DNA from: an uncultured Verrucomicrobia subdivision 3 bacterium
GTDB lineage: Bacteria; Verrucomicrobiota; Verrucomicrobiia; Limisphaerales; UBA11358
Length of the DNA: 44,442 nucleotides
Reading direction: 5' to 3'
Assembly: GCA_903944085.1 (NCBI GenBank)
Contig: CAJAQO010000289.1
Location: 1 to 44,442, forward strand
In this document: positions 5,560 through 26,319 of the stretch, piece after piece
Layout: each line of letters starts with the position of its first letter
Position numbering within the stretch: position 1 is the stretch's first letter
Position numbers and translations under genes: made by a program
The notes under the pieces: generated by a model
Told to the model about the DNA's origin: nothing
The model's database searches: none
What the model saw: the letters and a program-made list of their open reading frames with translations, nothing else

Positions 5560-5602
5560 TCGCCAGCGAGGAATTTGCAAAATAATCAATTCTACCAGCG
5601 CC

Positions 5603-7915: not shown

Positions 7916-8007
7916 ACCGGTAAAACGAAACCAGCCGTCGCAGTTTTGTTTTTGCCCGGCTGCATCCACCAGTCCGTTTTGGCATCGGCCCGAAGCCCGA
8001 TGCGCAA

Positions 8008-8028: not shown

Positions 8029-8074
8029 TCGTTTGGCGTTTCCCTGCGGCTGATGGTAAGTTAAGACATAAACC

Positions 8075-8179
8075 ATGCGCCGCTTCAACGAGGACAAATG
8101 CGCCATGCTGGCGGCTTGGTTGAAGCAGACGGCGAGCTGGTTTCTCGTTGCGGCTGTATTTTTGTGGTTATCCGCCTGA
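8075..8179 (+). CDS. Possible 34-residue single-pass membrane peptide
   Basis: An ATG at 8075 opens 34 codons ending in TGA at 8177-8179, eight bases before the S53 peptidase ATG. The peptide has a charged start (MRRFNEDK) and a hydrophobic second half (TASWFLVAAVFLWLSA) that would cross the membrane once. I do not recognise a family. The position directly ahead of a secreted peptidase gene could mean a co-expressed small membrane protein or a translated leader. It could also be chance: the gap is GC-rich, and no Shine-Dalgarno sequence marks the start, though most genes here lack one too. Treat it as a candidate. Confidence 0.3.
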   Translation: MRRFNEDKCAMLAAWLKQTASWFLVAAVFLWLSA

Positions 8180-8186
8180 TTGAAAT

Positions 8187-11100
8187 ATGATGAATCATTT
8201 TTTCCCCGCCGGCCTGATTAAAAAATTAAACCGCGCTTCCGTGGCCTTATCGCTGCTGCTTCTGGCCTCACCGGCGTTAGCCCAAGGCGGCCGGATCATC
8301 CCCGGCCACTTCGTTCCCGAGACGAGCCATTTGCAAGCGTTGGAGCGGCTGCCGGGAACCAATCATTTGAATCTGGTTCTGGGCTTGCCGTTGCGGAACG
8401 AGGCGGCGCTGGATCAGTTGCTGCAAGATTTGCATGATCCGGCCAGCACGAATTATCACCGGTGGCTGACGCCGGAACAATTCTCGGAGCGCTTCGGCCC
8501 CACCGTGGAGGATTATCAAAAAGTGGTCGGCTTTGCCCAAGTCAGTGGCCTGAAAGTGACCAGCCTGACGGCCAACCGGATGCTCCTGGACGTGGAGGCG
8601 CCGGTGTCAAATATTGAAAAAGCTTTCAGCGTGGTCCTGCGCCGATATCCGCATCCGCGGGAAGCCCGGAATTTTTATGCGCCGGACACCGACCCGACCG
8701 TGGCGGCGGATGTGCCGCTGCTGCACATCAGCGGCCTGGATAATTTTATTTTGCCACACCGGTTGGGCGGTGCGGTCAAGCCGGCTCCGCTCGCGACCAA
8801 TTCGATCACGGCATTTTACAGCGGCTCCGCACCGGGCGGCTATTTCATGGGCAAGGATTTTCGCAACGCCTACGTGCCCGGCGTCACCAATACGGGCGCA
8901 GGTCAATATATTGCCATTATTGACGTCGGCGGGCCGTATTACATGCAAGATGTTTACCTGTATGAGACCAATGCGAATCTTTCGACAAACACGGTCGTCA
9001 CGAACATTTTGCTGTCCGGTGCGACGGGGATTCCCAACGGCACCAATGCCGACGACGGCGAGGAAGCTTTGGACATTTGTATGGCCATGTCCATGGCGCC
9101 GAGCGCGACAATTTTGAATTACGAAGGCGGTGCAGACGATGTGTTCAATCAAATCGCAGCGGACAACAAAGCCAAGCAGATGACTTTGTCCTACGGTTTC
9201 GGCCTGGATGCGAACAATTACCAGTCCTTCAAACAATTTCTCGCGCAGGGGCAGGCGATGAGCCAGGCGTCCGGCGACGGCGACGCAGATCTGGACGGCG
9301 GCACCGGCCTGACCGGCAATCCCTACGCGACGATTGTTGGCGGCACGACTTTGACGACCAGCGGCGCGAGCGGGCCGTGGAGTTCTGAGACCGCTTGGAA
9401 CTGGAATAATAACGGCGGCAGCGGCGGCGGCATCAGCGGTTACGGCATTCCCAACTGGCAGCAAGGCATTAGCATGACCAGTAATCTGGGTTCCACCGGC
9501 TACCGAAATTATCCGGACGTGGCGATGCCCGCGGACGGCGTGTTTTTAATTTCACGCAATGGCAACTCCATCGGCTCGGTGGGCGGCACGAGTTGCGCCT
9601 CGCCGTTGTGGGCCGGCTTCATGGCGCTCGTCAACCAGCAGGCGGCCACGCTCGGCAAACCGGCGGTGGGTTTTGCCAATCCGCCGATCTATTCGATTGG
9701 CAAAGGCGTTTATGCGACTTACACCAAATGCTTCCACGACATCACCACCGGTAATAATTACAACAGCCAGAATCCAACACGGTTTCCGGCGGTCACCGGC
9801 TACGACCTTTGCACCGGCTGGGGAACACCAACCGGCAGCAATACGATCAATGCGCTGGCAGGCGATGGCACGAATGATTTTGATTTCTATCCGTCCCAAG
9901 GAAAATTCAATCTCGTCGCCGGCGCTTCGGCCAATGCCACGATCACCATGACGCGCATGAACGGTTTGACCGGCAGCGCCACATTTTCCATCACCGGCCT
10001 GCCCACCGGCATCACCGCAACCATCAGCCCGGTGAGCACGACTAACACGACCACGATGACCGTCGTGACGCGCACCAATACGCTGCCGGGCAGCTACACC
10101 GCGACGCTCACCGGCACGCTGGGCAGCCTGACGCATACTGTCACGTTGACGTTTGTTGTCATCGCGCCGATTCCCGGAGCCACGCAGGTCAGTCTGGCGT
10201 CGTATTACAATCGCACGGGAATTTATTCGGATGGCCGCAGTTTCAGCGTCGGCGTGGATGGCAGTTACTCCGCATATTCGGCAAATTTGCTCGGCTCGAC
10301 GCTTTCTTGGAATGGTTTGGTTTTCAATTTGGGTCCGTCGAATGCGGCGGACGTGGTTTATTGCGCGAGCCAGACCATCACGCTGCCGGCCGGCCGCTTC
10401 AACACGCTGCAAATTCTCGCCACGGGCGTGCAAGGCAGCCAGACGGCGGAGACATTCACCGTGACTTACACGGATAATTCCACGGCCACATTCACGCAAA
10501 GTTTTAGCGACTGGGCAAACCAGCAGGGTTACTCCGGCGAAAGCACGGCGATCACGATGCCTTACCGGAATTTGAACGGCGGCAATTCGCAGACGCTGAA
10601 TGTGAGCGTGGACGGCTACGTTTTCACGCTGGACCAAACCAAGACCGTCAAAAGCATCACGCTGCCGAGCGATTCAAATCTGGTTTTGCTTTCGATGATG
10701 CTCGCCAACGATCCGGTCAGCGCGCCGCTGGCCACTTTTTACAATCGCGCCGGCATTTACACGGACGGCACCACGTTCACCAATCCCGCGACCGGCGGCT
10801 TGGACGGCGGCGGCTATGCGTATTCCGGCACGCTGCTCGGCGGCTCGCAGATTTGGAGCAACACCGTGTTCAACTTCGGTCCGGCCAACGCCACCAATGT
10901 GATCAGCGCCGCCAGCCAAACCATTCCGCTGCCGAGCGGAAATTATTTTAATCTGCGAATGCTCGCGACGGGCGAGAATGGCGGCCAGGTGTCGCAATCC
11001 TTTGTCGTCACTTACACGGACGCCACGACCTCGACGTTTGTGCAAAGCTTGAGCGACTGGTATTCTCCGTCCAGCTATGCCGGTGAAGCCAAAGCCATCA

Positions 11101-12014
11101 TCATGGGCCACCGGAATTCCAGCGCCGGCACCGCCGACAACCGGACCTTTTATCTCTACGGTTACTCGTTTGCGCTCAATTCTGCCAAGACCGTTCAAAG
11201 CATCCGCCTGCCCGGCAATGGAAACGTGATCGTCGCCGCGATCAGCCTCGTGCCGAACTGGCCGCCCACGTTTGGTGCCAATCCGTTCACGCTGGCGAGC
11301 GTCAATGCCGGCCAAGCTTATTCCGCCACCATCGCGACAAATGCCAGCGATCTGAACGGCGGCACGCTGACGTATGGCAAAGTCAGCGGCCCGGCGTGGC
11401 TGAATGTTGGCACCGCCGGCAGCCTCTCCGGTGTGCCCGCGAATTCGGATGCGAACACCAATACATTCGTGGTCAGCGTGAAAGATACCGGCGGATTATC
11501 CAACACCGCGACGCTTTACATTTACGTCAACGGCGCACCGGCGTTCACGCTGAATCCGTTTTCAACGCCGGACATGGTCGCCGGTCAAAATTATTCCGGC
11601 ACGATTGCCACCAATGCTGCCGACCCGAATCCCGGCGACGTGCTCACGTTCGCAAAAATCAGCGGGCCAGCGTGGCTGACGGTCGGCGCGGACGGCACGC
11701 TTTCGGGCGAGCCGTTCTCGGCAGATGTTGGCACCAACAGCTTTGTCGTCAGCGTGACGGACCCGCAAAATCTTTCCGGCACCGCCACGCTGAACATCAA
11801 CGTAGTGGCACCACCGTCCATTCTTTCAACTATTTTGGCGAACGGAACGAATTTGCTGCTGAGTTGGAGCGGCGGCATTGCGCCGTATCAGGTGCAGGTT
11901 TCGACCGATCTGACCGCTTCTGTCTGGATCAACCTCGGCGGCGTGGGCAGCACCAACAGCGTGAGCATCACGCCCAGCAACGCGGCGGCGTTTTACCGCA
12001 TTCTTGGCCAATAG
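8187..12014 (+). CDS. Secreted S53 (sedolisin/kumamolisin) serine-carboxyl peptidase with duplicated C-terminal modules
   Basis: The 1275-residue product is an endopeptidase of the S53 family, whose members usually work at acidic pH and self-activate by removing a prodomain. A signal peptide ends at about residue 32 (LLLLASPALA). The Pro-kumamolisin prodomain spans about 40-195 (NYHRWLTPEQFSERFGPT). In the catalytic domain, E292 and D296 form the ExxxD pair, D364 sits in SGD (oxyanion), and S469 is the nucleophile in GGTSCASPLWAG. FHDITTGNN and GYDLCTGWG form the expected calcium site near 515-550. An Ig-like domain follows (about 570-665). Next come two copies of an unnamed beta domain (667-843 and 845-1023; NR.GIY.DG, VTYTD, QS.SDW). 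Two dystroglycan/cadherin-like repeats (about 1025-1208; GPAWL...G.LSG.P) and a tail ending FYRILGQ complete it. The regulator gene follows directly. Confidence 0.93.
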   Translation: MMNHFFPAGLIKKLNRASVALSLLLLASPALAQGGRIIPGHFVPETSHLQALERLPGTNHLNLVLGLPLRNEAALDQLLQDLHDPASTNYHRWLTPEQFSERFGPTVEDYQKVVGFAQVSGLKVTSLTANRMLLDVEAPVSNIEKAFSVVLRRYPHPREARNFYAPDTDPTVAADVPLLHISGLDNFILPHRLGGAVKPAPLATNSITAFYSGSAPGGYFMGKDFRNAYVPGVTNTGAGQYIAIIDVGGPYYMQDVYLYETNANLSTNTVVTNILLSGATGIPNGTNADDGEEALDICMAMSMAPSATILNYEGGADDVFNQIAADNKAKQMTLSYGFGLDANNYQSFKQFLAQGQAMSQASGDGDADLDGGTGLTGNPYATIVGGTTLTTSGASGPWSSETAWNWNNNGGSGGGISGYGIPNWQQGISMTSNLGSTGYRNYPDVAMPADGVFLISRNGNSIGSVGGTSCASPLWAGFMALVNQQAATLGKPAVGFANPPIYSIGKGVYATYTKCFHDITTGNNYNSQNPTRFPAVTGYDLCTGWGTPTGSNTINALAGDGTNDFDFYPSQGKFNLVAGASANATITMTRMNGLTGSATFSITGLPTGITATISPVSTTNTTTMTVVTRTNTLPGSYTATLTGTLGSLTHTVTLTFVVIAPIPGATQVSLASYYNRTGIYSDGRSFSVGVDGSYSAYSANLLGSTLSWNGLVFNLGPSNAADVVYCASQTITLPAGRFNTLQILATGVQGSQTAETFTVTYTDNSTATFTQSFSDWANQQGYSGESTAITMPYRNLNGGNSQTLNVSVDGYVFTLDQTKTVKSITLPSDSNLVLLSMMLANDPVSAPLATFYNRAGIYTDGTTFTNPATGGLDGGGYAYSGTLLGGSQIWSNTVFNFGPANATNVISAASQTIPLPSGNYFNLRMLATGENGGQVSQSFVVTYTDATTSTFVQSLSDWYSPSSYAGEAKAIIMGHRNSSAGTADNRTFYLYGYSFALNSAKTVQSIRLPGNGNVIVAAISLVPNWPPTFGANPFTLASVNAGQAYSATIATNASDLNGGTLTYGKVSGPAWLNVGTAGSLSGVPANSDANTNTFVVSVKDTGGLSNTATLYIYVNGAPAFTLNPFSTPDMVAGQNYSGTIATNAADPNPGDVLTFAKISGPAWLTVGADGTLSGEPFSADVGTNSFVVSVTDPQNLSGTATLNINVVAPPSILSTILANGTNLLLSWSGGIAPYQVQVSTDLTASVWINLGGVGSTNSVSITPSNAAAFYRILGQ

Positions 12015-12072
12015 CTCATTGCGTTTGCGCTGCGGGCGGGGCAGCCAGCGGGATTGGCAATGCATTGGACGG

Positions 12073-12099
12073 AACACATTTAATTCGTTAACATGTGTT
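12073..12099. promoter_or_regulatory. Inverted repeat just upstream of the GntR/LacI-type regulator
   Basis: AACACAT at 12073-12079 pairs perfectly with ATGTGTT at 12093-12099. Inside, TTAA and TTAA flank a TTCG centre, with one unpaired base. The right arm ends three bases before the regulator's ATG at 12103. This is a natural place for an autoregulatory operator or an RNA hairpin that hides the start. It could also act as a weak terminator for the peptidase gene, since four T residues follow, but the stem is AT-rich. The sequence does not resemble the 21-bp elements at 8008 and 13210. Confidence 0.4.
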
Positions 12100-12102
12100 T
12101 TG

Positions 12103-13194
12103 ATGGAACATCTGCCCAAAAGGTCAAACCTGCCGCAGGCCACGGTGGCCACCTTGAAAGAGTGGATCAGCACCGGCATGTTGAGCGAGGTGCTGCCGGG
12201 CGAGCTGCAATTAAAAAACCGCCTGGGGGTGGGGCGGGATACGCTGCGACAGGCGCTGAAATTGCTTGAGCAGGAAGGCTGGCTGGAACCGGCACTGCAA
12301 GGGCAGCAGCGTCGCGTCCGGATCAGGCATTCGAGTCCGCCGAAACAGACGGACCGGGGCCAATTGCCGGTGACGTTCCTGTCGCCGCACCGGATTGAAC
12401 ATCGGATTACCTTATTGGAAATGGAGGACACACAAATCCGGCTGGCCGAGCTGGGGCGGAGTCTGCGATTTCTTGCGCCAGATTTATTTCATCTCAAGCA
12501 TCCCGAACGCCAGTTGGAGCGGCTGGTGCAGGCTCATCCATCAGCGGCATGGATTTTGTATATCACCAGCGAGCCGATCCAGCGCTGGTTTGCGCAGCAG
12601 GGCCTGCCAACATTTCTCTACGAATGGCCGTTTCCGAATGTGAATCTTCCTTACGTCGTGGCGGACTGGGAAAGCGCCGCGTTTCATGCGGGCCTGCAAT
12701 TCATCCGCCACGGCCACCGGGTCATTGGCGTGTTTGAATACGCGGAACGCCGGCCCGGCCTGATGGCGATTGAGCAAGGTTTGCAACGGGCCTTGGCCAC
12801 GGCGGGCTACAACGCCCGGCTGGCGGTGTTCCACGACGACCGCTCGCTGTCCGCCATGGCCCGCTCGCTGGAACTCGCCTTCAGCGCCAAAGAACGGCCG
12901 ACGGCACTGGTATTCACGCGGGCCACGCAAGTGCTGACCTGTTTTTCGTGGGTGGCGGCCCGGGGCATTCGCATTCCGAAAGATGTTTCGATTGTTTCCC
13001 TGGCCAACGACAGTTGGTTTGCAGACCTTTATCCCCCGCTCGCCTATTACGCCCCCAATACGAGAACCTTTTCCCGCCACGTCGCGCAGCAGGTGCTGGA
13101 ACTGGTGAACACGGGGCGGGTGACGCGCAAATCCATCAAAATCCCGCTGGAGTATGTTGCCGGCGCGACCATCGGCCCGGTGGCGTGCCCTTGA
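12103..13194 (+). CDS. Transcriptional regulator, GntR-type HTH with LacI-type sensor domain
   Basis: The product has 363 residues from the ATG at 12103. An earlier in-frame start at 12004 would overlap the peptidase gene and add 33 residues without family character, so it was not used. Residues 5-75 form a winged helix of GntR type, with the recognition block NRLGVGRDTLRQALKLLEQE. Residues 110-360 look like a periplasmic-binding-protein-type sugar sensor as in LacI-family regulators: FIRHGHRVIGVFEY, AMARSLELAFSAKERPTAL, IRIPKDVSIVSLANDSWF. This architecture is common in Verrucomicrobia near polysaccharide-use genes. It probably controls the neighbouring secreted peptidase and modular protein genes in response to a sugar; the ligand is unknown. 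Two near-identical 21-bp palindromes flank the peptidase-regulator pair, and an inverted repeat lies at its own start. Confidence 0.88.
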   Translation: MEHLPKRSNLPQATVATLKEWISTGMLSEVLPGELQLKNRLGVGRDTLRQALKLLEQEGWLEPALQGQQRRVRIRHSSPPKQTDRGQLPVTFLSPHRIEHRITLLEMEDTQIRLAELGRSLRFLAPDLFHLKHPERQLERLVQAHPSAAWILYITSEPIQRWFAQQGLPTFLYEWPFPNVNLPYVVADWESAAFHAGLQFIRHGHRVIGVFEYAERRPGLMAIEQGLQRALATAGYNARLAVFHDDRSLSAMARSLELAFSAKERPTALVFTRATQVLTCFSWVAARGIRIPKDVSIVSLANDSWFADLYPPLAYYAPNTRTFSRHVAQQVLELVNTGRVTRKSIKIPLEYVAGATIGPVACP

Positions 13195-13630: not shown

Positions 13631-16600
13631 ATGAAATCAAGACTCCTGCCCATTTTGTTGACCTGCGCGTGCGCCAGCTTGGCCCGCGCGGACTTCAACC
13701 CTGTCACCCTGACGGCCAACAGCTACACCTACGACATCGTGGTGGAATCCAACACGGTGGCAGCGCTGCCCTACTGCATTGATGCGACCTCGGGGTCCGG
13801 CACCAGCAAGGGTGATAACACTTATTACGAGCAGGGCCTTCACTCCCGTCCCGGAGTAGCGGGATGGAACTCTGGTATTCCCGTCCACAATACGGTCTTC
13901 ACCAACATCAATAACGCAAACATGATGTTCTTGATGCCGCCGGATTATACCACCAACAACACCCTGCAACTCGATTCCGGGCTGACCACCGGCACTTTTA
14001 CATTCAATACGCCAACCTACGCCACAAATCTGGCCATCCTCTCGGGCGGTGCCGGGGCCGGCACCGTAAATTACACCGTGACCCACAGCGACGGCTCCAC
14101 GGAAACCGGAAGCATCAGTTTGCTGGACTGGTTCTCCGGTGGTTCCAGTGTCGCTTGGGGATGCAATGGCCGCATCACTTCCGGCGGTGGCTACAACAAT
14201 TACAACAGCAGCAGCGTGAATAACAATAATCCGTATCTTTATGGCTACCAAATAAAGGTCTCCGGCACCTTGGCCGTCAGCAACATCGTGTTCACTTTCA
14301 GTTCCGGCAATGAGCAGAACTTTTATGCCGTCAGCGGCAAGAACGTGGGGTCATCAACTTGGAATCCCATCCCGCTTGGCGGATTCAACCGCCGGACCAC
14401 CGTTCCCGCCACCGTTCCGTTCCCGGTCAACGCCACCATGGATCAGGGCACCAATATAGCTCAAGCCGGCAATGGCATGAACACTTGGTTTGAGCAGGGA
14501 TATGTTAACGACACCCCGACGGATGCGGCTTATGGACTGCCGCCTTCCGGCTCCATCTTTAACAGCCAAAGCCAGCCCACGCACCACTATCAGATGGGTA
14601 ATTACTCCGCAAACAATGCGATCCTGATTGACGTAAACCACCTTGTGGCAAACATTACGCCGGCAGTTAAGACCAATCTTTTTTCGTCCTTTGCGCTCCT
14701 GACCGCCGGCGGCAACATTGGCGGCAACAACGTCATGACCAACATCTGCATTCTGCAACATCAGGACGGGATAAATGAAACCAACCTCTTCTACGGTTAC
14801 GATTGGTATAACAGCGTTATTGCACCGGCCTTCATTGCCAATGGGCGGGTTGACATGCAAGGCCGCTCAGCCAACACCGTCGGCGGTGGCAACCCTAAAT
14901 TCTTTGAATCTTTCTTCGTGCTTTCGGATGTCGGCAGCCCCGTCACCAACATTGTGGTGATGTTTAAAGCCGCCCCGGCCACCAGTTCCACCACCTTTAT
15001 CATGGCTGTCAGCGCCTCGGCTGGCGGCGTGCCGCCATTGGTCACGGCGGGAGCCCTGCCGGCCACCCAGACTTGGTTCCCAACCCAATCGGCAAATTTC
15101 TCCGTTCAAGTCAGCGGAACGGCACCACTTACGAATACCTGGTTGGTGCAACAGGGAGTTGATATTAATAGCAATCCGTTGTATGTCCCGCTCACTAATG
15201 GAATTGACGCCAATGGAGCAACCGTCTCCGGGGCTGGCACGACCACGCTCACAATTAATAATCTGACTTTGGCCGACGGCACCAATTACGAATACATTGC
15301 CGCCAACGCCTTCGGCACCGCGACCAGTTCGCCGGCGATTCTCGTCATGAACGCTGGCACGCCGGTTGCGCCCATCATTGATGCCCAAGCTCCCACCGCG
15401 TCGTTCAGCGCGCTGACCAATCACACCTCGACATTCTCAGTCACCATTGATACTTCCAGTGCGCCTCCGCTCTTCTACCAATGGTATAGCGGTGCGGCCG
15501 CGATTTCTGGCGCGACCAACGCCACATATGTGAACGTGAACATCAATTCAACCACCTTCACCTGCATCATCACCAATTTCGTGGGCGCGGCAACGAGCAG
15601 TCCGGTATCAGTCACCATCTACTCGAAGCCTGCACTATCAACCTATCAGTCGGCGATTTTTGCTCTTAACCCGGTGTCCTATTGGCCGCTAAATGAAGCT
15701 GACGGCAATACTGCATATGATTATGCCAGCACCAATGACGGCACTTATACCGGCAATTTCACCCTGGGCAATACGGGTCTGCCGGCCACGGCGGGCCTCG
15801 GCACCAACACCTCCGCCGGCTTTGATGGCTCTACTGCCTATGTAAACATTCCCGTGCATAATCTTAATATCACCGGCCCGATGACGGTGATCGAATGGGT
15901 TCAGCCACCGGTCGGTGCCGACACCGGTTTCACCACCCCGTTGGGCCACTCGGATTCAAGCTACCGTTTTGACGTGGCCGGCGGCCAGCCGCACTGGGCC
16001 GACGCCGGGCCAGACGTCGTCAGTGCCACCACGATTAACGACGGCAATTGGCATCAGTTGGTTGGTGTTTATGACGGCACCACCCAACGGCTGTATGTGG
16101 ATGGCCAGCCAGCGGGCACTCCGCAAACCGGCGCCCCGGCCGGTAACACCGGCAATGTTTGGATCGGCGGCGCGCCTGATTATGCGGGCGCACGCAATTT
16201 CAACGGCAACATCGCGCAGGTTGCGATTATCTCCAGCGCCCTTTCTGCGGCCCAAGTGCTGGCGATTTATCAAAGCCTCGACACGCCGCCAACGGTTTCG
16301 ATCACACCTGCCAGTCCTTCGATTTATGCCGGCTCCAGCATCACCCTGACCGCGCATACCAATACGAGCGTGACTCCGGCCACGAGCCTGCAATGGTATT
16401 ATATTGATCCATTGAACAACTCGAACAATATCGCCGGGGCGACCGGTTCCACTTACACCATTGCCAACGCGCCGCTTTCGTTGAACGGCTACACTTATGG
16501 CGTGAACGCCGGCAATGCTTACGGCAGCACCACCGCAAGTGTCGTCTTGACGGTTCAAAATGGCCCAGCCTATCTGGGTGGTGATATTTCGCCGCTGACC

Positions 16601-17698
16601 GGTGAGGCTTACGTCGGAGCGCCGGTGACTTATACCGTAAATGCTCAAGGCAGCTTGCCCATCTACTATCAATGGAGCGTGGATGGTATCGGCGTGAGCG
16701 GCGCAACCAACGCCAGCTTTACGTTGCCGGCTCCGTGCGGCACGCATCTGATTCAAGCCTCCTTCACCAATGCCCAGAACGGCGGCATCCCCGTGCTCAG
16801 TTCGGCGGCATCGTTGCAAGGTGACACGTATCCCACCAACATCACGTTCAACACCGACGGCACCGGCTGGCAGTTGAACGGTGGTGTGCCCACCATCGCT
16901 GCCAACATTCTGCAATTGACCGACGGCAACAGCGACGAGGCCGTCAGCGCGTTTTACACGGTTCCGCAATATGTCGGCAGTTTCACCGCCTCATTCACTT
17001 ACACTGCGTCGGGAAATCGTGCGGCTGATGGCGCTACGTTTGCCATTCAAAATTACTCTGCCGGCGCGACTTCCCTGGGCGGCGGCGGTGGCCAACTGGG
17101 CTATGCTGGCATCGGCAACAGCCTGGCCTTGGAGATTAATCTCTATACCGGCAACGGTGAGAACTCCGGCATTGCTGCCGGAACCAATGGCAATACCTTC
17201 GCAACCGGTGGTGCGCAATATCAGGCACCCGGATTGGTTGATGTCACCAGCGGCGACCCCATCAACTTCACGGTGAACTGGGCGAACGGCATCATGGCCG
17301 TGACGGCGACGGATGCCACAACCATGGCTACTTATTCCACCAACTATGTCTATGGTTCGCTGACTCCCATCCTAGGCGGCACGGATCTTGGCTTTGTTGG
17401 ATTTACTGGAGCCGATGGTGGCGCTACCTCGATCCAGACCATCAGCAACTTCCAGTTTAACTCAGTCATCCCGCCGGTGACGCTGTCGGTGTCGCCAGTG
17501 ACCGGCAGTTCGTTTGTCATCTCATGGCCGGCGGCCGATCCAAGCTACGTGCTGCAAAAAACCTCGTCCTTGAAATCGCCATCGTGGGCAGCCGGCCCCA
17601 CGCCGGTGGTGGTCGGTGGAGTCAATCAAGCCACCGTGAATGTGAATGGTGGCAGCGGCCAGCAGTTCTATCGGCTCGTGCGCGTCGTGTGCCAATAG
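13631..17698 (+). CDS. Secreted modular protein: two tandem unnamed domains, Ig-like, LamG and L-type lectin domains
   Basis: The product has 1355 residues from the ATG that opens a signal peptide (MKSRLLPILLTCACASLARA). Residues 21-237 and 244-462 are two diverged copies of an unnamed beta-rich domain: a YDIVVES-type start, a YEQGL/FEQGY block, a hydrophobic strand series and an ending like FYAVSG. Related copies occur in the next gene. Ig-like domains lie at about 470-665. A LamG domain follows at 670-887 (SYWPLNEADG, DGNWHQLVGVYDG, VDGQPAGTPQ, GNIAQVAI). Two more Ig-like domains lie at about 888-1062. A bacterial L-type lectin-like domain at about 1065-1277 (GDGTTFAIQN-like ADGATFAIQN, LALEINLYTG, FVGFTGADGG) comes before a tail that ends QQFYRLVRVVCQ. 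No catalytic site is seen. It is likely a surface or secreted glycan-binding protein; function is unknown. Confidence 0.85.
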   Translation: MKSRLLPILLTCACASLARADFNPVTLTANSYTYDIVVESNTVAALPYCIDATSGSGTSKGDNTYYEQGLHSRPGVAGWNSGIPVHNTVFTNINNANMMFLMPPDYTTNNTLQLDSGLTTGTFTFNTPTYATNLAILSGGAGAGTVNYTVTHSDGSTETGSISLLDWFSGGSSVAWGCNGRITSGGGYNNYNSSSVNNNNPYLYGYQIKVSGTLAVSNIVFTFSSGNEQNFYAVSGKNVGSSTWNPIPLGGFNRRTTVPATVPFPVNATMDQGTNIAQAGNGMNTWFEQGYVNDTPTDAAYGLPPSGSIFNSQSQPTHHYQMGNYSANNAILIDVNHLVANITPAVKTNLFSSFALLTAGGNIGGNNVMTNICILQHQDGINETNLFYGYDWYNSVIAPAFIANGRVDMQGRSANTVGGGNPKFFESFFVLSDVGSPVTNIVVMFKAAPATSSTTFIMAVSASAGGVPPLVTAGALPATQTWFPTQSANFSVQVSGTAPLTNTWLVQQGVDINSNPLYVPLTNGIDANGATVSGAGTTTLTINNLTLADGTNYEYIAANAFGTATSSPAILVMNAGTPVAPIIDAQAPTASFSALTNHTSTFSVTIDTSSAPPLFYQWYSGAAAISGATNATYVNVNINSTTFTCIITNFVGAATSSPVSVTIYSKPALSTYQSAIFALNPVSYWPLNEADGNTAYDYASTNDGTYTGNFTLGNTGLPATAGLGTNTSAGFDGSTAYVNIPVHNLNITGPMTVIEWVQPPVGADTGFTTPLGHSDSSYRFDVAGGQPHWADAGPDVVSATTINDGNWHQLVGVYDGTTQRLYVDGQPAGTPQTGAPAGNTGNVWIGGAPDYAGARNFNGNIAQVAIISSALSAAQVLAIYQSLDTPPTVSITPASPSIYAGSSITLTAHTNTSVTPATSLQWYYIDPLNNSNNIAGATGSTYTIANAPLSLNGYTYGVNAGNAYGSTTASVVLTVQNGPAYLGGDISPLTGEAYVGAPVTYTVNAQGSLPIYYQWSVDGIGVSGATNASFTLPAPCGTHLIQASFTNAQNGGIPVLSSAASLQGDTYPTNITFNTDGTGWQLNGGVPTIAANILQLTDGNSDEAVSAFYTVPQYVGSFTASFTYTASGNRAADGATFAIQNYSAGATSLGGGGGQLGYAGIGNSLALEINLYTGNGENSGIAAGTNGNTFATGGAQYQAPGLVDVTSGDPINFTVNWANGIMAVTATDATTMATYSTNYVYGSLTPILGGTDLGFVGFTGADGGATSIQTISNFQFNSVIPPVTLSVSPVTGSSFVISWPAADPSYVLQKTSSLKSPSWAAGPTPVVVGGVNQATVNVNGGSGQQFYRLVRVVCQ

Positions 17699-17710
17699 GC
17701 TTGGCGGTCG

Positions 17711-17752
17711 GCCGCTGCCCGTGAGCGAGGAACGCTCGCTCCGGGCAGCGGC
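17711..17752. repeat. Strong inverted repeat, REP-like hairpin
   Basis: GCCGCTGCCCG at 17711-17721 is matched perfectly by its complement at 17742-17752. Nested inside, GAGCG at 17723-17727 pairs with CGCTC at 17733-17737. The DNA or RNA could fold into a nearly continuous 16-bp stem. It begins 12 bp after the stop codon of the LamG/lectin gene and has no T tract directly after it. It may be a REP-type intergenic palindrome, an mRNA 3'-end stabiliser, or part of a two-hairpin terminator together with the element at 17767-17821. Confidence 0.6.
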
Positions 17753-17766
17753 AACGCAATCAACAC

Positions 17767-17821
17767 CCGCACGGGATCGCGGGACGCCAGCTTGGACGTC
17801 TCCGGTCCCCTGCGGTTTTTT
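17767..17821 (+). terminator. Probable intrinsic terminator after the LamG/lectin gene
   Basis: CCGCA at 17767-17771 pairs with TGCGG at 17811-17815, GGGAC at 17781-17785 pairs with GTCCC at 17805-17809, and six T residues follow at 17816-17821. The stem has internal loops, so it is not ideal. It lies 70-120 bp after the stop at 17698 and about 90 bp before the TTG start of the next gene. It would separate the two giant genes into different transcripts. Confidence 0.4.
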
Positions 17822-17910
17822 AATTCACTGCGCGAAGGCGTATTAATCCTGATAGATTTCGCCAACTAGGCCGATGTCGGCGCGTGTTCAACTTACCTAT
17901 TTGATCCATC

Positions 17911-20900
17911 TTGAAAACCATTCAACGTCAGAAATGTGCGATTGCCACCGCCGCCGGCCTCCTGGTTTTGGCGGCGCTCCACCTTGCCGCCGCCAACATG
18001 ACGCCGCTCACCATCACCGGTTTTAACTGGGACGTAATTGTCGAGAGCACCTCCGCCGGTCCGCCCTACACCACCGCTTCGGAACTGAATCCCGGCGAAG
18101 GCAATGCCTTTTATCAAGTTGGATTATCAGGCAAAAGTTACGGCTTGCCGGTTTCTGGAAATTTTTCCAGCGCGGTGGGCGACGGCACGACTTTTCAATT
18201 TCAAGCTTACACGGCTAAAAACGCGCTGGTGTTAAGCAGCGACACCGGAGCAAGTGTCGGCACGCTGATCCTCGCCACGCCCGCGCTCTACAATCGCATC
18301 GCCATCCTTGCCAATTCCGCCAGCGCCACCGCCGCCAGCACGGGAACGCTGACGCTGACGTTCAACGACGGCAGCACCTTCGTCACCAATTACTATGCCC
18401 CGGACTGGTTCGGCAATACGAACTATGCCCTGGCCGGGGTCGAGCGCATCAACTTAGCTACCGGAGCCACCTCCGGTGCAACCACCAATCCCCGGTTTTA
18501 TCAGACCAGCATCAACCTGGCTGCGCTTTTGGGGGGAGCCAACAAACCGCTGGTCAGCCTGACCTTTGGTAAAGCGACTGCCGCCGGGGCCACCGGCATT
18601 TATGCCGTCAGTGGCGAATTGCTCAACCCGGTGCCCGCTTCCATTACCAGCCAGCCCGTCAGCACGACGGTCAATGAATTGTCGCCGGTGAGTTTCAGCG
18701 CGGTGGTGGCCGGCAACCCTTTTCCAACGCTGCAATGGTATCAAAACGGCTCACCGATGGTTGGCGCAACTAATTCAACTTACTCCGTTGCCGCCGCCGC
18801 CTTGACCAGCAGCGGCGCGCTTTTCCAATTGGTGGCCGCCAATGTGGTCAGCAACATTAGTTATAGCGTTACCAGCAGCGTTGCCACCCTGACCGTCAAT
18901 GCCATCAACAAGCCAATTGCGCTGACCGGTTACAATGTGGACGTGGTCGTTGAAAGCAATGCCGCCGGGCCGCCATACAACAGCTATGCTGTGGAACTAA
19001 ATCCGAGCGAAGGAAGCGCGTTTTATCAAAGCGGTTTGCCGGGCGATGCTTACGGGCTGCCGGCAGCCGGTTCGTTTTTGAGTGCGGTAGATGGCAGCCT
19101 GTTTCAGTTTCAACCTTACACCACCAATAATGCACTGCTGTTGAGCAGCGACACCGGCATCAGTTCCGGCACGCTGACGCTGGTGACGCCACAAACTTAC
19201 CAATCCATCGCGCTGCTCGCCAATTCCGCCAACGGCGACAGCGGCGGAACTGCGATTGTGACGCTGCTTTTCAGCGACGGCACTTCGTTCCCCGCCACCT
19301 ATTATGCGCCGGACTGGTTTAATAATACCGTCAATGTCGCGCTGCAAGGAGTGGAACGCGTCGTCTTGAGCAGCGGGGTGACGCAGGGTGCGCCGAGCAA
19401 TCCACGATTTTACCAGACCACGCTCAATCTCGCCGCTTTGCTCGGTTCAAGCAACAAGCCACTGGCCGGACTCAGCTTCGGCATGGCGCAGGTATCCGCG
19501 GCCACCGCCATTTATGCGGTAAGTGGGATGGTGGCGCCAGCTTCACCGCCTTATTTTGTCAGCCAACCAACCAATGCCACCGTGTCGGAACTCAACCCGG
19601 CAACATTTAGTGCGACGATTGCTGGAAATCCCTATCCCGCCTTACAATGGTATCTCAACGGCGGTTTGATTCCGGGCGCGACCAATTCAGCTTACAACCT
19701 TCCATCCGTTCCGCTGGTGGACAATGGCGCACTTCTAAAATTGGTAGCTTCCAGCCTGGTCAGCAATGTAAGTTACAATATCACCAGCAGCATTGTGACC
19801 TTGACGGTCGTGGCGGATACGAACTTGCCAATTCTGCTAGGTGCGCAGTCGCAGGGCTTGAATCAAGTGCTGGTAAGTTTGTCCAAGCGCATCGCTCAAG
19901 GTTCAGCAACCAACCTGGCAAACTTTACTCTCACGGGGCCGGGTGGTGCGATATCTATTCTAAGTGCGGCACAGGATGCCTCCCAAAGCAACCTTGTTCT
20001 TACTGTAAACTCGATGGTTGACCAAAATACCTATGTTTTGACGGTCAACAATCTGAGTGACCAAACAAGCCGGGGCAATATTATCGCCGCAAATTCGCAG
20101 GCCGGGTTTGTGGCCAGCGCGTATGTGCCAGTGGCGATTGGCCCTCCCCAATTCGGCGGCCAGACAGTATTTAGCAACGCTCTGACAATTTTCAGTAGCG
20201 GCAGCGCCATTGGCGGAACCAACGACCAGTTTCAATACAGTTACAAAATCGTTTCTGGCAATTTTGACATCGCGGTTCGCCTCGTTGGTTTGAGTTTGTC
20301 CGACACCTGGGCGAAGGCGGGGTTAATGGCGCGCGAGGCGTTGACTTCGGGCGGACGTTTTGCCGCTTCCCTGGCGACACCGGCGATCAACGGCTGCTTT
20401 TTCGAATGGCGCAACACCGCCAACAGCACCAACCAATCTGCTGGCAGCTTTCCGGATAATTATCCGAATACTTGGCTGCGGCTTAACCGGGTGGGCAACC
20501 TCTTCAGCGGATTTGCGAGCTATGACGGACAGACTTGGGCGCTGCTGGGCGGCCAAACGATTGCCATGTCCAACCAGCTTTATCTGGGCTTCGCCGTGGA
20601 CAGCGACCTAACGAACCAACCTGTGACCGCCCAGTTTCTGCAAATCACCAACACTCCTGCCAACGCCGTGGTCGGGACGGTGGCTTATCCTTACGAGCCG
20701 CCGGCAGCGTGCAGCCGCACGACGCCCATTGTGCTTTCCGAAATCATGTGGAAACCAGCTCCGCGCACGGACACGAACAACTGTGAGTTTGTGGAAATTT
20801 ATAATTCGAATCCTTGGTTTCAGGACATCAGTTCCTACCAGCTTGTATGCGCGGATATGAATTACACCTTTCCGCCGGGGACAATCCTCGCGGGCGGAGC

Positions 20901-23900
20901 TTATCTCGTCATCGCCGCCTCGCCAGGCAGCATCCAAAATATCTATGGTGTCACCAATGTCCTGGGGCCTTACAACGGCAGTCTGAAACATTCTGAGACT
21001 TTGCAGTTGTTGGACGAACAAGGATCGGTGCTCCTGACCGTTCCTTATTCGGACACTTATCCGTGGCCGGTGGCAACTTCCGGCACGGGACATTCCCTGA
21101 TTCTAGCCAATCCAAGTTATGGCGAAGGCGACCCGCGCGCGTGGACTATCAGCGATATGATCGGCGGCTCGCCGGGCGCGATGGAATCATTTCACCCCAG
21201 CCCGCTCCGCAATGTCGTTATCAATGAAATTTTGGCTCACTCGGAAAATCCAGCCCTGCCGCCATTCGTTGAACTTTACAATCACAGCACTAACACCGTG
21301 GACCTGTCGGGCTGCATCTTGTCCGATAACGCCAGCCTCAGCCAGTATGTCATGCCATCAGGAACCACCATTGGCCCCGGTGGATTTCTTGCATTCAACG
21401 CTTCGCTCGGTTTTAGTTTGAATCCGGCCGGAGACACAATTTATCTTATCAAGCCCGACGGCAGCCGGGTGCTGGACGCTGTGCAGTTCACCGGACAAGC
21501 GAACGGCGTGGCTTATGGTCGGTGGCCGGACGGGGCTAATGATTTTTATCCGCTCCAGTCATTGACGCCGGGGACAAACAACAGTGCCATCCTCATCGGC
21601 AACATTGTTATCAACGAGTTGATGTATGATCCGATCAGTGGAAACGACGATGACCAATACATTGAGCTTTACAATCAAGGCACTAATACGGTCAGCCTGG
21701 CCAACTGGCAATTTACATCGGCCGTCACATTTACTTTTTCCGCCAGCGCCAGTATCGGGCCGAATGGTTATGTGGTGATTGGCCGAAACACTTCAGAACT
21801 AATTTCCAACTATGCAAATCTTAATTCTGGCAATACCTATGGCAACTATTCCGGCAAGCTTTCGCACAGCGGCGAACGGGTGGTGCTGGCCATGCCGCAA
21901 TCCCTCTATGGCACCAACACCATCTATGTGGTGGAGGACGAGGTGACTTATGGCGCCGGCGGCCGTTGGGGCCAATGGTCTGGCGGTGGCGGGAGCAGTC
22001 TGGAGTTAATTGATCCGCACAGCAATCACCGTCTGGCCGCGAACTGGGCTGACAGCGATGAGTCCAAAAAATCTGCCTGGACCGACATTGAGCACACTGG
22101 CGTGCTGGATAACGGCGCCAATTATGAGGCTTCGATCTTGCACGCCCAGATTGGCATTCTGGACGTGGGCGAATGCTTGGTGGACAACGTCGAGGCTGAT
22201 TTGCAAGGAACCAATTACATCGCCAATCCAACTTTTGAATCAGGCCTGGCTAGCTGGTCGTTGCAAGGAAGTCATGTCCGTTCTAGCTTGGAGAGTTCCG
22301 GTTACAATAGCAGCTACTCGCTGCATATTCGCAGCGGCGACAAATTCTGGCCGGCGGAAAATTCCTGCCAAGCCGTCCTGAATGCCAATGGCATGGTGGC
22401 TGGCAGCACCGTCACCTTGAGATATAAGGCCCGCTGGATTCATGGCTGTCCAGAACCCGATTTGCGCTTGAATGGCAACTGGCTCGAAGCCACCGCCGTG
22501 TTGCCGATTCCCCGCAATCTAGGCACGCCGGGTTCGCCGAATAGCACCTACATCACCAACGCCGGGCCGGCATTATATGGGGTTACACATATTCCGCCGC
22601 TGCCTGCCGCCGGTCAACCGGTGGTTGTTACTGCTCGCGTTCAAGATCCGGATGGCTTGCGCAGCCTGACGTTGTTCTACCGGATAGATCCGGCCATCGC
22701 TTACACCAGCGTGACCATGAAAGACGACGGCACCGGTGGCGATGCCATCGCCCGCGACGGCATCTATAGCGCAACCATTCCGGGACAGATTGCACAAACA
22801 GTTACTGCCTTTTACCTTTCCGCTGTGGACAGCTTGGGCGCTTCAAACCGCTTTCCGGCTTTGCTTACGGATCAATCGCCGGTGCGCGAATGTGTCGTGA
22901 TGTTTGGCGACGGCAATCCGAGCGGCAGCTTTGGGACTTATCATGTCTGGCTCACGCAAACCAATGTCAACCGCTGGGCCAGCCTCGCAGACCTAAGCAA
23001 CGAAGGCAATGATTTCACGTTCGTCTATGACAACAATCGGGTCATCTACAACGTTCAGGGGCACTATTCGGGCAGCCCGTTTCACCAGGAGTTTGATTCG
23101 CCCGTCGGCAATCTCTGTGCTTACAAATGGGAATTCCCGGATGACGACAAATTTCTGGGCGCGACCGATTTTAATAAGATTCATCAGCCGGGCAACTCGC
23201 CGGGAGACGATCCGAGTTTGCAGCGGGAGCAGACGACCTGGTCGTTTATGCGCGCCATGAGTGTGCCTTGGGGCTATCGGCGATATGTTGCCGTCTATGT
23301 GAACGGCAACCGGCGCGGTGTGCTGATGGAAGACGCGCAAGTGCCCGATGGTGACATGGTCAAACAGTATTTCCCCAACGACACCGGCGGCTTTCTTTAC
23401 AAGATGCAGCCGTGGTTCGAATTTGCCCCGTCCCCGTCCGGCTATTCCATTGGCACGACGGCGGAATCCTATTGTTATTTTCTGCCATATGTTACCACCG
23501 GCGGCGTCAAGAAAGCAGCGCGCTATCGCTATAACTTTGAAATCCGCCGCACGCCGGACAGTTACAGCGATTTTACCAACGTGTTTTCGCTGGTGGACGC
23601 GGCCAGTGCTTTTGCCAGCCCCAACTATGTTGCCAACATGGAAAACATGGCGGACATGGATGAGTGGATGCGCGTTTTCGCGGCCAATCATGCCGCTGGC
23701 AACATTGATTCCGTCGGCACACAGATCAGCCAGAACATGTATAGTTACATTGGCTTGAATGGCACCAAATTCACGCTCATGCCGTGGGATCTTAACATTG
23801 ATTTGGGCGGGGCGCAGTCGCTGGCACCGGGGCAGAATTTGCTGGTCTATGACAGTGCGGATTCGAATTTAGGCGTGATTTATCAAACTCCCGCCTTCTT

Positions 23901-26319
23901 GCGGATGTATTGGCGCGCACAGCAGGAATTGGTGAACGGTGCGCTGAATATTGCCGTGACCACCGGCCCGCTCATGAATGCAAAATACAACGCTTTTGTC
24001 GCCAACGGCCTTGGCGTGGAGAATCCCAATGCCGCCATCCTGCCTTGGATTTCTTCGGCTCAAACCAGCATTGCCGCACAACTGGCGGCGGTCAACGCCT
24101 CCGCGTTCAGCGTCAACCCCACCGCGACGGTAAGTAATAACATGGCCTATGTCAGCGGCGTCGCACCGGTGGCGGTTGGCACGGTTTGGATCAACGGAGC
24201 TGCGTGGCCAGTAACTTGGACCACGCTGACCAATTGGATTGTCGCCGTGCCGCTGCGTCCCGGGACTAATCAACTCAATATTGCGGCGGTGGACAAGAAA
24301 GGCCAACTTATCGCCGGCGAGACCGGCAGCGTGGCGGCGGTTTACAATGGCACGGCAGCGTCACCGGCGGGACAAGTGGTGATCAATGAAATAATGTATG
24401 CGCCCGTATTGCCAGACGCACAGTTTATTGAACTGTATAATAACTCAACCAACACGGCTTTCGATCTTTCCGGCTGGCAGTTGCCGGAACTGGCCTACAC
24501 TTTCCCCAACGGTTCGGAACTTGCCGCCGGCGGCTTCCTTGTGCTGGCAAATAATCAGGCTGCTTTTGCCGCCGCTTATGGCGCGACGAACAATGTGTTC
24601 GATCTTTTTGACGGCACGTTGCAACCAGGCCAAACGCTCGCGCTGCTGCAGACCAATTTGGCCGGTTCCAACAGCACCATCGTGGCTGAAGTATCCTTTG
24701 ACAGCGTGCTGCCCTGGCCAACCAACGCCAATGGCACGGGCAGCTCGCTGCAATTGATTGATTCAAGGCAGGACAATTGGCGCGTGGGGAACTGGGCGGT
24801 GGCGGCCGCCGCGGGCCGGACGGCAAGTCCCGGCGCAACTAATACGACCGCCGCGTTACTAACTCCGTTCCAACCGCTATGGCTCAACGAAGTTGAACCT
24901 AACAACTTGACGGGTATTACCAACCGGGCCGGCCAGCGTGCCCCGTGGATCGAGCTTTACAATCCCTCCACGAACACGATTTCCTTCAGCGGACTTTATT
25001 TGGCGAATAATTACACGAATTTGGGTCAATGGCCGTTTCCCGGCTACGCCAGCATTAAAGCCGGCCAGTTTCTAGTCGTCTTCGCCGACGGCCAGACCAA
25101 TCTTTCAACCACTAATGAACTTCATGCCAGCTTTGGCCTGCCGGGCAGCAGCGGGGCGCTGGCCTTGAGCCGGTTGACCAATGCCCAATGGCAGGTGCTC
25201 GATTATCTTAACTACACTAATCTGCTGCCGAACTATTCCTATGGATCCTTTCCCGACGGACAGAGTTTTGTCCGGCAGGTTTTTATTCAACCGACGCCCG
25301 GAGGCACTAACATCGGTTCCGGCACGCCACCGCCGTCCTTTGTTCCGTATCTGGCCGCTGGTTCGGTATATACCCAAAACTTTGATTCTTTGCCTGATCC
25401 CGGTGCCACCTCCATCAACACGGCCAATCCGGTGACGATCAATGGGATCACTTACTCGCTTTCCAATCCATTCGACTTCGCTTTTCCAGTCAGCGCCAGC
25501 GGCGGCAATGGCGGCTTGGGGCTCGCGAGCCTCGCGGGTTGGTATGGTCTGGCGAATCCCGCGGCTAGTGTTGGCACTCGTTTCGGGGCTTCGGACGGCG
25601 ACCAAACCACCGGCGGCCAGCTTAGCTTTGGACTGCCGAATAGTTCGAATCGCGCACTCGGTTTGCTGGCCACGAGCAGCACTGGTTATACCGTGTTTGG
25701 CGTCCGTTTCATCAATGGCACGTCGCAGACGTTGAACTTTGTAAATCTCCAGTTTATCGGCGAAGTCTGGCGTCAATCCAATCTGGCGAAGACGCTAAGT
25801 TGTTCTTACTTGATAGATCCCACGGGGACCGCTGCATTTTCGACGAACGCCACGGCATCCTTGGCAAACTTGAGCGTGAGTCTTCCGATCGTCTCCGCCG
25901 ATGTTGGCGGCGTGGCGGTGGATGGCACGGCGGCGGGCAACCAGCTTAATCTGGCGGTGACGAACCAAGCCATCGCCGCTTGGCCGCCGGGCGCGGCGCT
26001 TTGGCTGGTGTGGGAAATGGCCGACCCGACCGGTAAAGCCCAAGGGCTGGCGATAGACAACTTAAGTTTTTCCGCCTCGGTTTTTCCGTCCGGTTTTGTG
26101 GTGCCGGCGTTGACCGCACCGACAACCGCTGGAACTAATTTTGTATTTTCGTGCGCCTCTTTGACCGGGCTGGCCTATCAAATTGAATTCAGCGACAGTT
26201 TGAGCACGAGCAACTGGATTCCGCTGGGCGGTTCGGTTTCCGGCACCGGCAATCCATTGATCTTCACCATCAACGCGACTAACTCACAACGCTTTTTCCG
26301 GGTGCGGATTGTGCCGTAA
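17911..26319 (+). CDS. Giant secreted protein: CotH-like kinase domain, five lamin-tail domains, tandem unnamed domains
   Basis: The product has 2802 residues. The start is TTG at 17911: an in-frame TGA at 17902-17904 blocks any earlier start, and no later one keeps the signal peptide (IATAAGLLVLAALHLAAA). In order it holds: unnamed domain copies at about 30-235 and 331-545 (YYAPDWF, NPRFYQT, IYAVSG in both), each followed by an Ig-like domain; an SbsA-like domain (about 636-735); a DUF1349-like sandwich (740-910; DTWAKAGLMARE); lamin-tail domains at about 939-1060, 1101-1225, 1229-1370, 2157-2290 and 2324-2450 (VINE(I/L)(M/L)...F(V/I)ELYN); a CBM-like part (about 1430-1530); and a CotH-type kinase-like domain (about 1664-1974) with FTLMPWDLNIDLGG. 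The tail ends QRFFRVRIVP, like its neighbours. CotH proteins phosphorylate or bind surface proteins; the role here is unknown. Confidence 0.9.
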   Translation: MKTIQRQKCAIATAAGLLVLAALHLAAANMTPLTITGFNWDVIVESTSAGPPYTTASELNPGEGNAFYQVGLSGKSYGLPVSGNFSSAVGDGTTFQFQAYTAKNALVLSSDTGASVGTLILATPALYNRIAILANSASATAASTGTLTLTFNDGSTFVTNYYAPDWFGNTNYALAGVERINLATGATSGATTNPRFYQTSINLAALLGGANKPLVSLTFGKATAAGATGIYAVSGELLNPVPASITSQPVSTTVNELSPVSFSAVVAGNPFPTLQWYQNGSPMVGATNSTYSVAAAALTSSGALFQLVAANVVSNISYSVTSSVATLTVNAINKPIALTGYNVDVVVESNAAGPPYNSYAVELNPSEGSAFYQSGLPGDAYGLPAAGSFLSAVDGSLFQFQPYTTNNALLLSSDTGISSGTLTLVTPQTYQSIALLANSANGDSGGTAIVTLLFSDGTSFPATYYAPDWFNNTVNVALQGVERVVLSSGVTQGAPSNPRFYQTTLNLAALLGSSNKPLAGLSFGMAQVSAATAIYAVSGMVAPASPPYFVSQPTNATVSELNPATFSATIAGNPYPALQWYLNGGLIPGATNSAYNLPSVPLVDNGALLKLVASSLVSNVSYNITSSIVTLTVVADTNLPILLGAQSQGLNQVLVSLSKRIAQGSATNLANFTLTGPGGAISILSAAQDASQSNLVLTVNSMVDQNTYVLTVNNLSDQTSRGNIIAANSQAGFVASAYVPVAIGPPQFGGQTVFSNALTIFSSGSAIGGTNDQFQYSYKIVSGNFDIAVRLVGLSLSDTWAKAGLMAREALTSGGRFAASLATPAINGCFFEWRNTANSTNQSAGSFPDNYPNTWLRLNRVGNLFSGFASYDGQTWALLGGQTIAMSNQLYLGFAVDSDLTNQPVTAQFLQITNTPANAVVGTVAYPYEPPAACSRTTPIVLSEIMWKPAPRTDTNNCEFVEIYNSNPWFQDISSYQLVCADMNYTFPPGTILAGGAYLVIAASPGSIQNIYGVTNVLGPYNGSLKHSETLQLLDEQGSVLLTVPYSDTYPWPVATSGTGHSLILANPSYGEGDPRAWTISDMIGGSPGAMESFHPSPLRNVVINEILAHSENPALPPFVELYNHSTNTVDLSGCILSDNASLSQYVMPSGTTIGPGGFLAFNASLGFSLNPAGDTIYLIKPDGSRVLDAVQFTGQANGVAYGRWPDGANDFYPLQSLTPGTNNSAILIGNIVINELMYDPISGNDDDQYIELYNQGTNTVSLANWQFTSAVTFTFSASASIGPNGYVVIGRNTSELISNYANLNSGNTYGNYSGKLSHSGERVVLAMPQSLYGTNTIYVVEDEVTYGAGGRWGQWSGGGGSSLELIDPHSNHRLAANWADSDESKKSAWTDIEHTGVLDNGANYEASILHAQIGILDVGECLVDNVEADLQGTNYIANPTFESGLASWSLQGSHVRSSLESSGYNSSYSLHIRSGDKFWPAENSCQAVLNANGMVAGSTVTLRYKARWIHGCPEPDLRLNGNWLEATAVLPIPRNLGTPGSPNSTYITNAGPALYGVTHIPPLPAAGQPVVVTARVQDPDGLRSLTLFYRIDPAIAYTSVTMKDDGTGGDAIARDGIYSATIPGQIAQTVTAFYLSAVDSLGASNRFPALLTDQSPVRECVVMFGDGNPSGSFGTYHVWLTQTNVNRWASLADLSNEGNDFTFVYDNNRVIYNVQGHYSGSPFHQEFDSPVGNLCAYKWEFPDDDKFLGATDFNKIHQPGNSPGDDPSLQREQTTWSFMRAMSVPWGYRRYVAVYVNGNRRGVLMEDAQVPDGDMVKQYFPNDTGGFLYKMQPWFEFAPSPSGYSIGTTAESYCYFLPYVTTGGVKKAARYRYNFEIRRTPDSYSDFTNVFSLVDAASAFASPNYVANMENMADMDEWMRVFAANHAAGNIDSVGTQISQNMYSYIGLNGTKFTLMPWDLNIDLGGAQSLAPGQNLLVYDSADSNLGVIYQTPAFLRMYWRAQQELVNGALNIAVTTGPLMNAKYNAFVANGLGVENPNAAILPWISSAQTSIAAQLAAVNASAFSVNPTATVSNNMAYVSGVAPVAVGTVWINGAAWPVTWTTLTNWIVAVPLRPGTNQLNIAAVDKKGQLIAGETGSVAAVYNGTAASPAGQVVINEIMYAPVLPDAQFIELYNNSTNTAFDLSGWQLPELAYTFPNGSELAAGGFLVLANNQAAFAAAYGATNNVFDLFDGTLQPGQTLALLQTNLAGSNSTIVAEVSFDSVLPWPTNANGTGSSLQLIDSRQDNWRVGNWAVAAAAGRTASPGATNTTAALLTPFQPLWLNEVEPNNLTGITNRAGQRAPWIELYNPSTNTISFSGLYLANNYTNLGQWPFPGYASIKAGQFLVVFADGQTNLSTTNELHASFGLPGSSGALALSRLTNAQWQVLDYLNYTNLLPNYSYGSFPDGQSFVRQVFIQPTPGGTNIGSGTPPPSFVPYLAAGSVYTQNFDSLPDPGATSINTANPVTINGITYSLSNPFDFAFPVSASGGNGGLGLASLAGWYGLANPAASVGTRFGASDGDQTTGGQLSFGLPNSSNRALGLLATSSTGYTVFGVRFINGTSQTLNFVNLQFIGEVWRQSNLAKTLSCSYLIDPTGTAAFSTNATASLANLSVSLPIVSADVGGVAVDGTAAGNQLNLAVTNQAIAAWPPGAALWLVWEMADPTGKAQGLAIDNLSFSASVFPSGFVVPALTAPTTAGTNFVFSCASLTGLAYQIEFSDSLSTSNWIPLGGSVSGTGNPLIFTINATNSQRFFRVRIVP

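Follow-up and report, generated by a model that had tools for sequence, protein, structure and literature searches.

The closest structural counterpart of the domain described here is AziU3, which acts with AziU2 in the azinomycin aziridine synthase AziU3/U2 of Streptomyces sahachiroi. AziU3/U2 forms the aziridine ring in a reaction that displaces sulfate (PMC12559475; Kurosawa et al. 2022, as cited in PMC9570651), its substrate is the sulfated amino-acid derivative O7-sulfo DADH (PMC11168924, PMC12559475), and its fold has been called novel (PMC11168924). Two further points of reference are the beta-sandwich carbohydrate-binding modules (CBMs) and proteins ending in PEP-CTERM, a sorting signal tied to exopolysaccharide genes and surface habitats (PMC1569441). 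With these we compared a domain found in tandem in P1 and P2, two giant proteins encoded by adjacent genes on a 44,442-nucleotide stretch of DNA from an uncultured Verrucomicrobia subdivision 3 bacterium (GCA_903944085.1, CAJAQO010000289.1; hereafter, the window). The four copies in P1 and P2 are homologous and belong to a sequence family that appears to be undescribed in the libraries searched; the module may bind glycans, and the solved structure that its predicted fold matches best is AziU3.

Four homologous copies in P1 and P2

P1 begins with a signal peptide recognized by eye, MKSRLLPILLTCACASLARA, and continues with copies P1a and P1b, which are separated by a linker of 4 residues, followed by Ig-like domains, a LamG domain (Laminin_G_3 in Pfam, residues 732-876) and an FYRL-type C-terminal end. 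The start of P2 is also signal-peptide-like by eye, which suggests that both proteins are secreted. Its N-terminal region has the order copy, Ig-like, copy, Ig-like, and is followed by five LTD (lamin-tail) domains, a sub-threshold Pfam match to CBM_4_9, a CotH kinase-like domain and a C-terminal FFRVRI end. An NCBIfam scan found no PEP-CTERM end in P1 or P2. Coordinates of these and other features are collected in Table 1.

Profiles A1 and A2 contain the window copies, which makes their E-values circular there, and these were not used as evidence. We relied instead on an independent profile of 42 rows from other genomes, all P2-like, which includes neither window sequences nor any of P1 type. 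This profile scored 74 bits on P1a (E 6e-21), 66 bits on P1b (E 1.7e-18) and 307 bits on each of P2a and P2b, and found no match in the remainder of either protein. Maxima over 500 shuffles of each P1 copy were 7.8 bits (P1a) and 5.6 bits (P1b), and pairwise Smith-Waterman z values between the copies ranged from 10.8 to 69. The four copies are homologous and do not resemble one another by chance. A reading made from the DNA letters alone (the sequence-only reading) had placed four copies between 13691 and 19540, and this interval does cover P1a, P1b, P2a and P2b.

P2a and P2b are 61% identical; identity to P2a is 34% for P1a and 26% for P1b. The conserved blocks that had been quoted for the copies are present in P2b and in P1a, and partly so elsewhere. 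YAPDWF, NPRFYQT, NLAALLG and IYAVSG are common to P2a and P2b, and the first block, given as VVES for both, is VVVES in P2b and VIVES in P2a. P1a has DIVVES, LDWFSGG and NFYAVSG, and P1b is more diverged, with the clearly altered VPAT, YDWYNS and IMAVSAS at the corresponding places.

In a tree of 69 rows, P2a groups with the copy at the same position in L078, a Verrucomicrobia subdivision 3 genome of the same genus as the window genome, and P2b does likewise with its own counterpart there (support 100/98 and 100/99). Since same-position copies pair, the duplication that gave rise to P2a and P2b predates the split between the two genomes. The P1 copies and those of L035, L037, L078 and L081 make up a distinct clade (98/92), and L078 has an additional middle copy. 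On the tree, the tandem copies are old and position-specific.

Pfam-A scans with both whole proteins and with 19, then 51, family members gave no weighty match on the domain. NCBIfam, searched with both proteins and eight relatives, had nothing on it, no PHROGs family was over the cut-off for 19 members, and profile searches of PDB sequences returned no credible match. These searches support the view that the sequence family is undescribed in Pfam, NCBIfam, PHROGs and PDB sequences, and within them the earlier suggestion of an undescribed family holds: in the Pfam search that had been proposed for it, run with the copies and their relatives, no existing family takes in the four copies. Several candidates were rejected. 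CBM_AftD (PF24607) matched 1 of 19 members at E 0.019, and the genome has no place above the curated 27-bit cut-off. Oxalate decarboxylase appeared in PDB searches at E 0.2-1.7 over 40 residues around 'DGS...DW', which we took as chance. A phage origin was set aside after no match was found among 50,697 phage records or in PHROGs, as was a defence role, with no PADLOC family in P1 or P2.

Three side observations concern the giant proteins themselves. Residues about 1100-1265 of P1 (16928-17425), read by eye, resemble an L-type (legume) lectin and have no Pfam match. Similar C-terminal stretches, with approximate start points, end P1 (17470-17698), P2 (26090-26319) and the upstream S53-type gene (11790-12014). 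STNL...W...FYR[LVIA] occurs near the end of nearly all giant carriers of this group, 28 of 39 by the strict pattern and most others by eye; this common stretch is possibly a sorting or anchoring domain.

Predicted fold, carriers and distribution

Structure prediction, also proposed in the sequence-only reading, gave a confident AlphaFold model of P2b (51 rows; mean predicted local distance difference test score, pLDDT, 95; predicted template modelling score, pTM, 0.92). The model is a beta-sandwich, mostly strands with one short helix. For the P1 tandem pair (7 rows) the prediction was poor (pLDDT 60, pTM 0.44). The best match among solved folds was AziU3 (PDB 8GS1, 7WUW), with a VIA Z of 16.1 and a root-mean-square deviation (rmsd) of 2.9 over 175 of 212 residues at 16% identity, and a Foldseek E of 8e-7; judging from chain length and entry titles, the matching chain would be AziU3 and not AziU2. 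This Z is about twice that of any other match. PAPP-A (Z 8.5) and CBM29 (8.2) came next, then CBM8, CBM86, CBM11 and CBM15, the five CBM matches having Z 7.3-8.2 and rmsd 3.2-3.8; absence from a VIA-align or Foldseek listing does not exclude a family. AziU3 was not among the PDB chains in profile searches (A2, A6) at E up to 10. With no sequence match in these searches, we read the structural match as a sign that the module and AziU3 probably share a distant common ancestor, and not as evidence of the same chemistry. The match suggests a possible origin for a fold described as novel. In the numbering of the family alignment, the nearly invariant residues are D138, W139, S208, N12, G52 and R153, with N77 and Y73 also among the most conserved.

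Architectures were counted in 51 non-redundant proteins with context. One copy is present in 38, two in 12 and three in 1; the first copy lies at most 130 residues from the start of the reading frame in 27, and the other 24 carry the domain away from the N-terminus. The proposal that the domain always occurs near the N-terminus and in pairs fits P1 and P2 only, and these counts and positions show that it fails as a generalisation. Tandem copies are spaced by 3-9 residues (P1 type), by about 97 with an Ig-like domain between them (P2 type), or by about 270.

The domain is fused to several kinds of hydrolase. Segatella and Prevotella proteins have the order GH85, F5/8C, PKD, domain, with the domain at the C-terminus; the Segatella gene (a Segatella GH85 protein is WP_218457951.1) adjoins GH125 and GH130 genes, and the Prevotella genes adjoin SusC/SusD-like genes, as read by eye. 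Elsewhere the domain stands between GH76 plus BACON and Ig plus LamG (L104), is carried in two copies on a GDSL lipase/esterase (L044), follows an M12/M66-like peptidase whose Pfam scores are weak (L099), or precedes CHB_HEX_C with PA14 or LamG (L088, L090). Other Verrucomicrobiota encode proteins of about 270 residues in which a signal-like stretch at the N-terminus is followed by one domain and then a PEP-CTERM tail (L039, L040, L042, L043, L046; TIGR02595 above 16 bits).

Further observations were made on the carriers and their genomes. The window genome has three exosortase genes, on contigs C55, C83 and C106 (L155, L156, L157). In two proteins (L036, 1742-7261, residues 419-450; L037, 1-2883, minus strand, residues 409-469) the second copy matches the first part of the profile only and is followed by autotransporter-like repeats. 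In L034 (10817-11644, minus strand) the module is fused to an N-terminal domain about 275 residues long, which has relatives in L038, L096, L101, L102, L103 and L107. This N-terminal domain has an invariant DDE (D136 D137 E138), no PDB sequence match at E up to 0.1 and no credible Pfam match, and by eye resembles a glycosidase-type barrel.

Additional copies lie elsewhere in the window genome, on contigs C94, C264, C233 and C41, several of them single or in mid-protein. Matches were found in 70 of 320 genomes of the order, with up to nine scored copies each, and in 14 of 387 genomes of a phylum-wide sample, a figure that counts the genome itself and some weak matches. A3, a closer alignment than the diverse A2, was searched against 84,980 species genomes and returned 34 loci, mostly in metagenome-assembled genomes (MAGs) labelled Verrucomicrobiota. 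More distant matches outside the phylum were in Segatella hominis and Prevotella oral taxon 299 (Bacteroidota) and Frigoriglobus tundricola (Planctomycetota). A 'Geobacteraceae' record (L098) may be mis-binned, since it is a small MAG contig whose protein groups within verrucomicrobial proteins in the tree. Roughly one in five genomes of the order thus has the module, in up to nine or more copies, and it also occurs in GH85 enzymes of human-associated Prevotella and Segatella.

A proposed role in glycan binding

We propose, with a probability of about 0.55, that the module belongs to a non-catalytic glycan-binding family through which secreted enzymes and surface proteins are tethered. It would be a secreted beta-sandwich of about 205-220 residues with an accessory, gripping function. 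Attached singly or in ancient tandem series of two or three differing copies, it would keep multidomain secreted enzymes and surface proteins on a polysaccharide or glycoprotein, which could be a substrate or exopolysaccharide made by the cell itself. For P1 and P2, this would mean that the N-terminus of a long fibre-like protein (Ig, LamG, LTD, CotH) is fixed to a glycan close to the co-encoded GH29, GH92, S53-type and BSP enzymes. Because relatives are fused to enzymes that digest mannose-rich sugars, an accessory role in sugar binding is probable, and because the small PEP-CTERM proteins hold a start region, one domain and a tail, the module appears to work alone. As in a CBM, the domain is attached as a discrete unit to carbohydrate-active enzymes, namely the GH85 and GH76 carriers, which P1 and P2 are not; the model and the stand-alone proteins indicate an independent fold, presumably a non-catalytic one. 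The mannose theme recurs in the GH92 gene of the window, the GH76 and GH85 fusions and the GH125 and GH130 neighbours in Segatella, which makes mannose-rich glycans the first candidate ligand, as a lead and nothing more.

Several points weigh against this proposal. The CBM matches, at Z 7-8, lie near the background of the fold tool, for which such values are the typical best for models with no clear relative. The sole strong fold match, AziU3, has been characterized as a component of an aziridine synthase and not as a CBM, and the most conserved residues could be structural. Some copies also sit in proteins with no recognized sugar enzyme, such as the CotH/LTD and autotransporter-like repeat proteins. 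The earlier suggestion of a carbohydrate- or surface-binding module is accordingly upheld in part: the beta-sandwich model, the secreted context and the fusions to GH85, GH76, GDSL-esterase and peptidase-like domains favour it indirectly, and the closest fold does not.

The tandem copies lie among Ig, FN3, LamG, LTD and PA14 domains of giant proteins, and some carriers have no recognized catalytic domain (P1 by Pfam; L036 and L037 by eye). Both features would suit a spacer or protein-protein adhesion module that, like the neighbouring Ig, FN3 and LamG domains, has no glycan ligand. We regard this as possible and rather doubtful, for the module makes up nearly the whole of the small PEP-CTERM proteins, and single copies on GH85 and GH76 enzymes would be unexpected of a pure spacer. 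Glycan binding could itself serve to anchor proteins to the envelope or exopolysaccharide of the producing cell and not to a substrate, a sub-case of our proposal that does not exclude it. The PEP-CTERM tails of the stand-alone relatives, with the link of that system to exopolysaccharide genes and surface habitats, and the exosortase genes of the window genome point in this direction; P1 and P2, however, lack the tail, and the Segatella GH85 carrier gene lies beside other glycosidase genes, which suggests substrate targeting. On balance we think anchoring of this kind rather unlikely.

The full-length match to AziU3 also raises the idea that the domain is a related enzyme or small-molecule-binding domain, acting for example on sulfated or amino compounds, with the secreted copies being catalytic. 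The sulfated substrate of AziU3/U2, the near invariance of D138 and W139 and a sulfatase gene in the window are in keeping with it. However, the profile searches found no sequence match to AziU3, several carriers already have separate catalytic domains, and tandem repetition is typical of binding modules; we consider this reading very unlikely. The surroundings in the window are not those of an azinomycin/vazabitide-type cluster, the neighbours being GH29, BSP, GH92, S53-type, regulator and sulfatase genes. We give very little credence, too, to the conjecture that the module and AziU3 form one superfamily, and that a pocket like that of AziU3 persists in at least some secreted members and binds or even chemically processes sulfated sugars; if it were true, a module abundant on bacterial surfaces would have a natural-product enzyme among its relatives.

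Under the glycan-binding proposal, the module would be a new CBM-type family and could help to predict the targets of these largely uncultured bacteria. For a module absent from the searched libraries, the analysis defines the domain limits and supplies a profile, a confidently predicted structure and a range of hosts.

Neighbouring genes and comparison with known systems

Table 1. Coordinates of the module copies, their carriers and neighbouring features (window positions unless a locus is named)
Feature	Position	Strand	Description	Basis
S53-type (kumamolisin-like) peptidase gene	8187-12014	+	Pro-kumamolisin activation domain	Pfam
Distant relative, copy 1	10323..10670	+	S53-type peptidase residues 713-828, part matched by hidden Markov model	A2 profile, E 5.6e-8
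Distant relative, copy 2	10812..11210	+	S53-type peptidase residues 876-1008	A2 profile, E 4e-11
Regulator	12004..13194	+	GntR DNA-binding and LacI-type sugar-sensor domains; upstream of P1	Pfam
P1	13631..17698	+	1355 aa, probably secreted	ORF, translation, Pfam
Copy P1a	13688..14344	+	P1 residues 20-238	Independent profile, alignment
Copy P1b	14357..15022	+	P1 residues 243-464	Independent profile, alignment
P2	17911..26319	+	2802 aa, TTG start, probably secreted	ORF, translation, Pfam
Copy P2a	17992..18621	+	P2 residues 28-237	Alignment, independent profile
Ig-like domain between P2a and P2b	18640..18900 (end approximate)	+	P2 residues 244-297	Pfam Ig_3
Copy P2b	18901..19536	+	P2 residues 331-542	Independent profile, AlphaFold model
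CotH kinase-like domain	23194..23946	+	P2 residues 1762-2012	Pfam PF08757 E 3.7e-14, genome search
Prevotella/Segatella GH85-type carriers	L142 2524-6756; L143 13-6753		Unnamed C-terminal domain of the module family	

Genes for a GH29 fucosidase, a BSP peptidase, a GH92 mannosidase, an S53-type peptidase and a sulfatase lie in one stretch of the window (2313-12014 and 32636-35635), which looks like a region for glycoprotein or glycan degradation. The peptidase is one that we take to be of class S53 from its kumamolisin-type Pfam match. Pairs of the P1/P2 type occur on one contig in six other genomes; beside them we found a GntR/LacI-type regulator in 2 of 6, BSP in 1 of 6 and a whole S53-type gene in 1 of 6, figures that describe recurrence and not frequency, as the genomes were picked for having the pair.

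The repeats of the S53-type peptidase are distantly homologous to the module (hhalign probability 95.5% over 116 columns) and likewise tandem. They are C-terminal, only roughly the C-terminal two thirds align, and Pfam has no name for them. The small PEP-CTERM proteins contain the same domain as nearly their sole content; they differ from P1 and P2 in having one copy and a PEP-CTERM tail. Like CBM29, CBM11, CBM15, CBM8 and CBM86, the module is a beta-sandwich in the model, apparently secreted and appended to glycosidases, but at about 210 residues it is longer than these CBMs (130-180) and has no sequence match to them. AziU3 has the same fold as the module model over its full length; it is a biosynthetic enzyme that acts with AziU2, whereas the module is a domain of multidomain proteins that appear to be secreted. 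Of these comparisons, the link to AziU3 is the surprising one.

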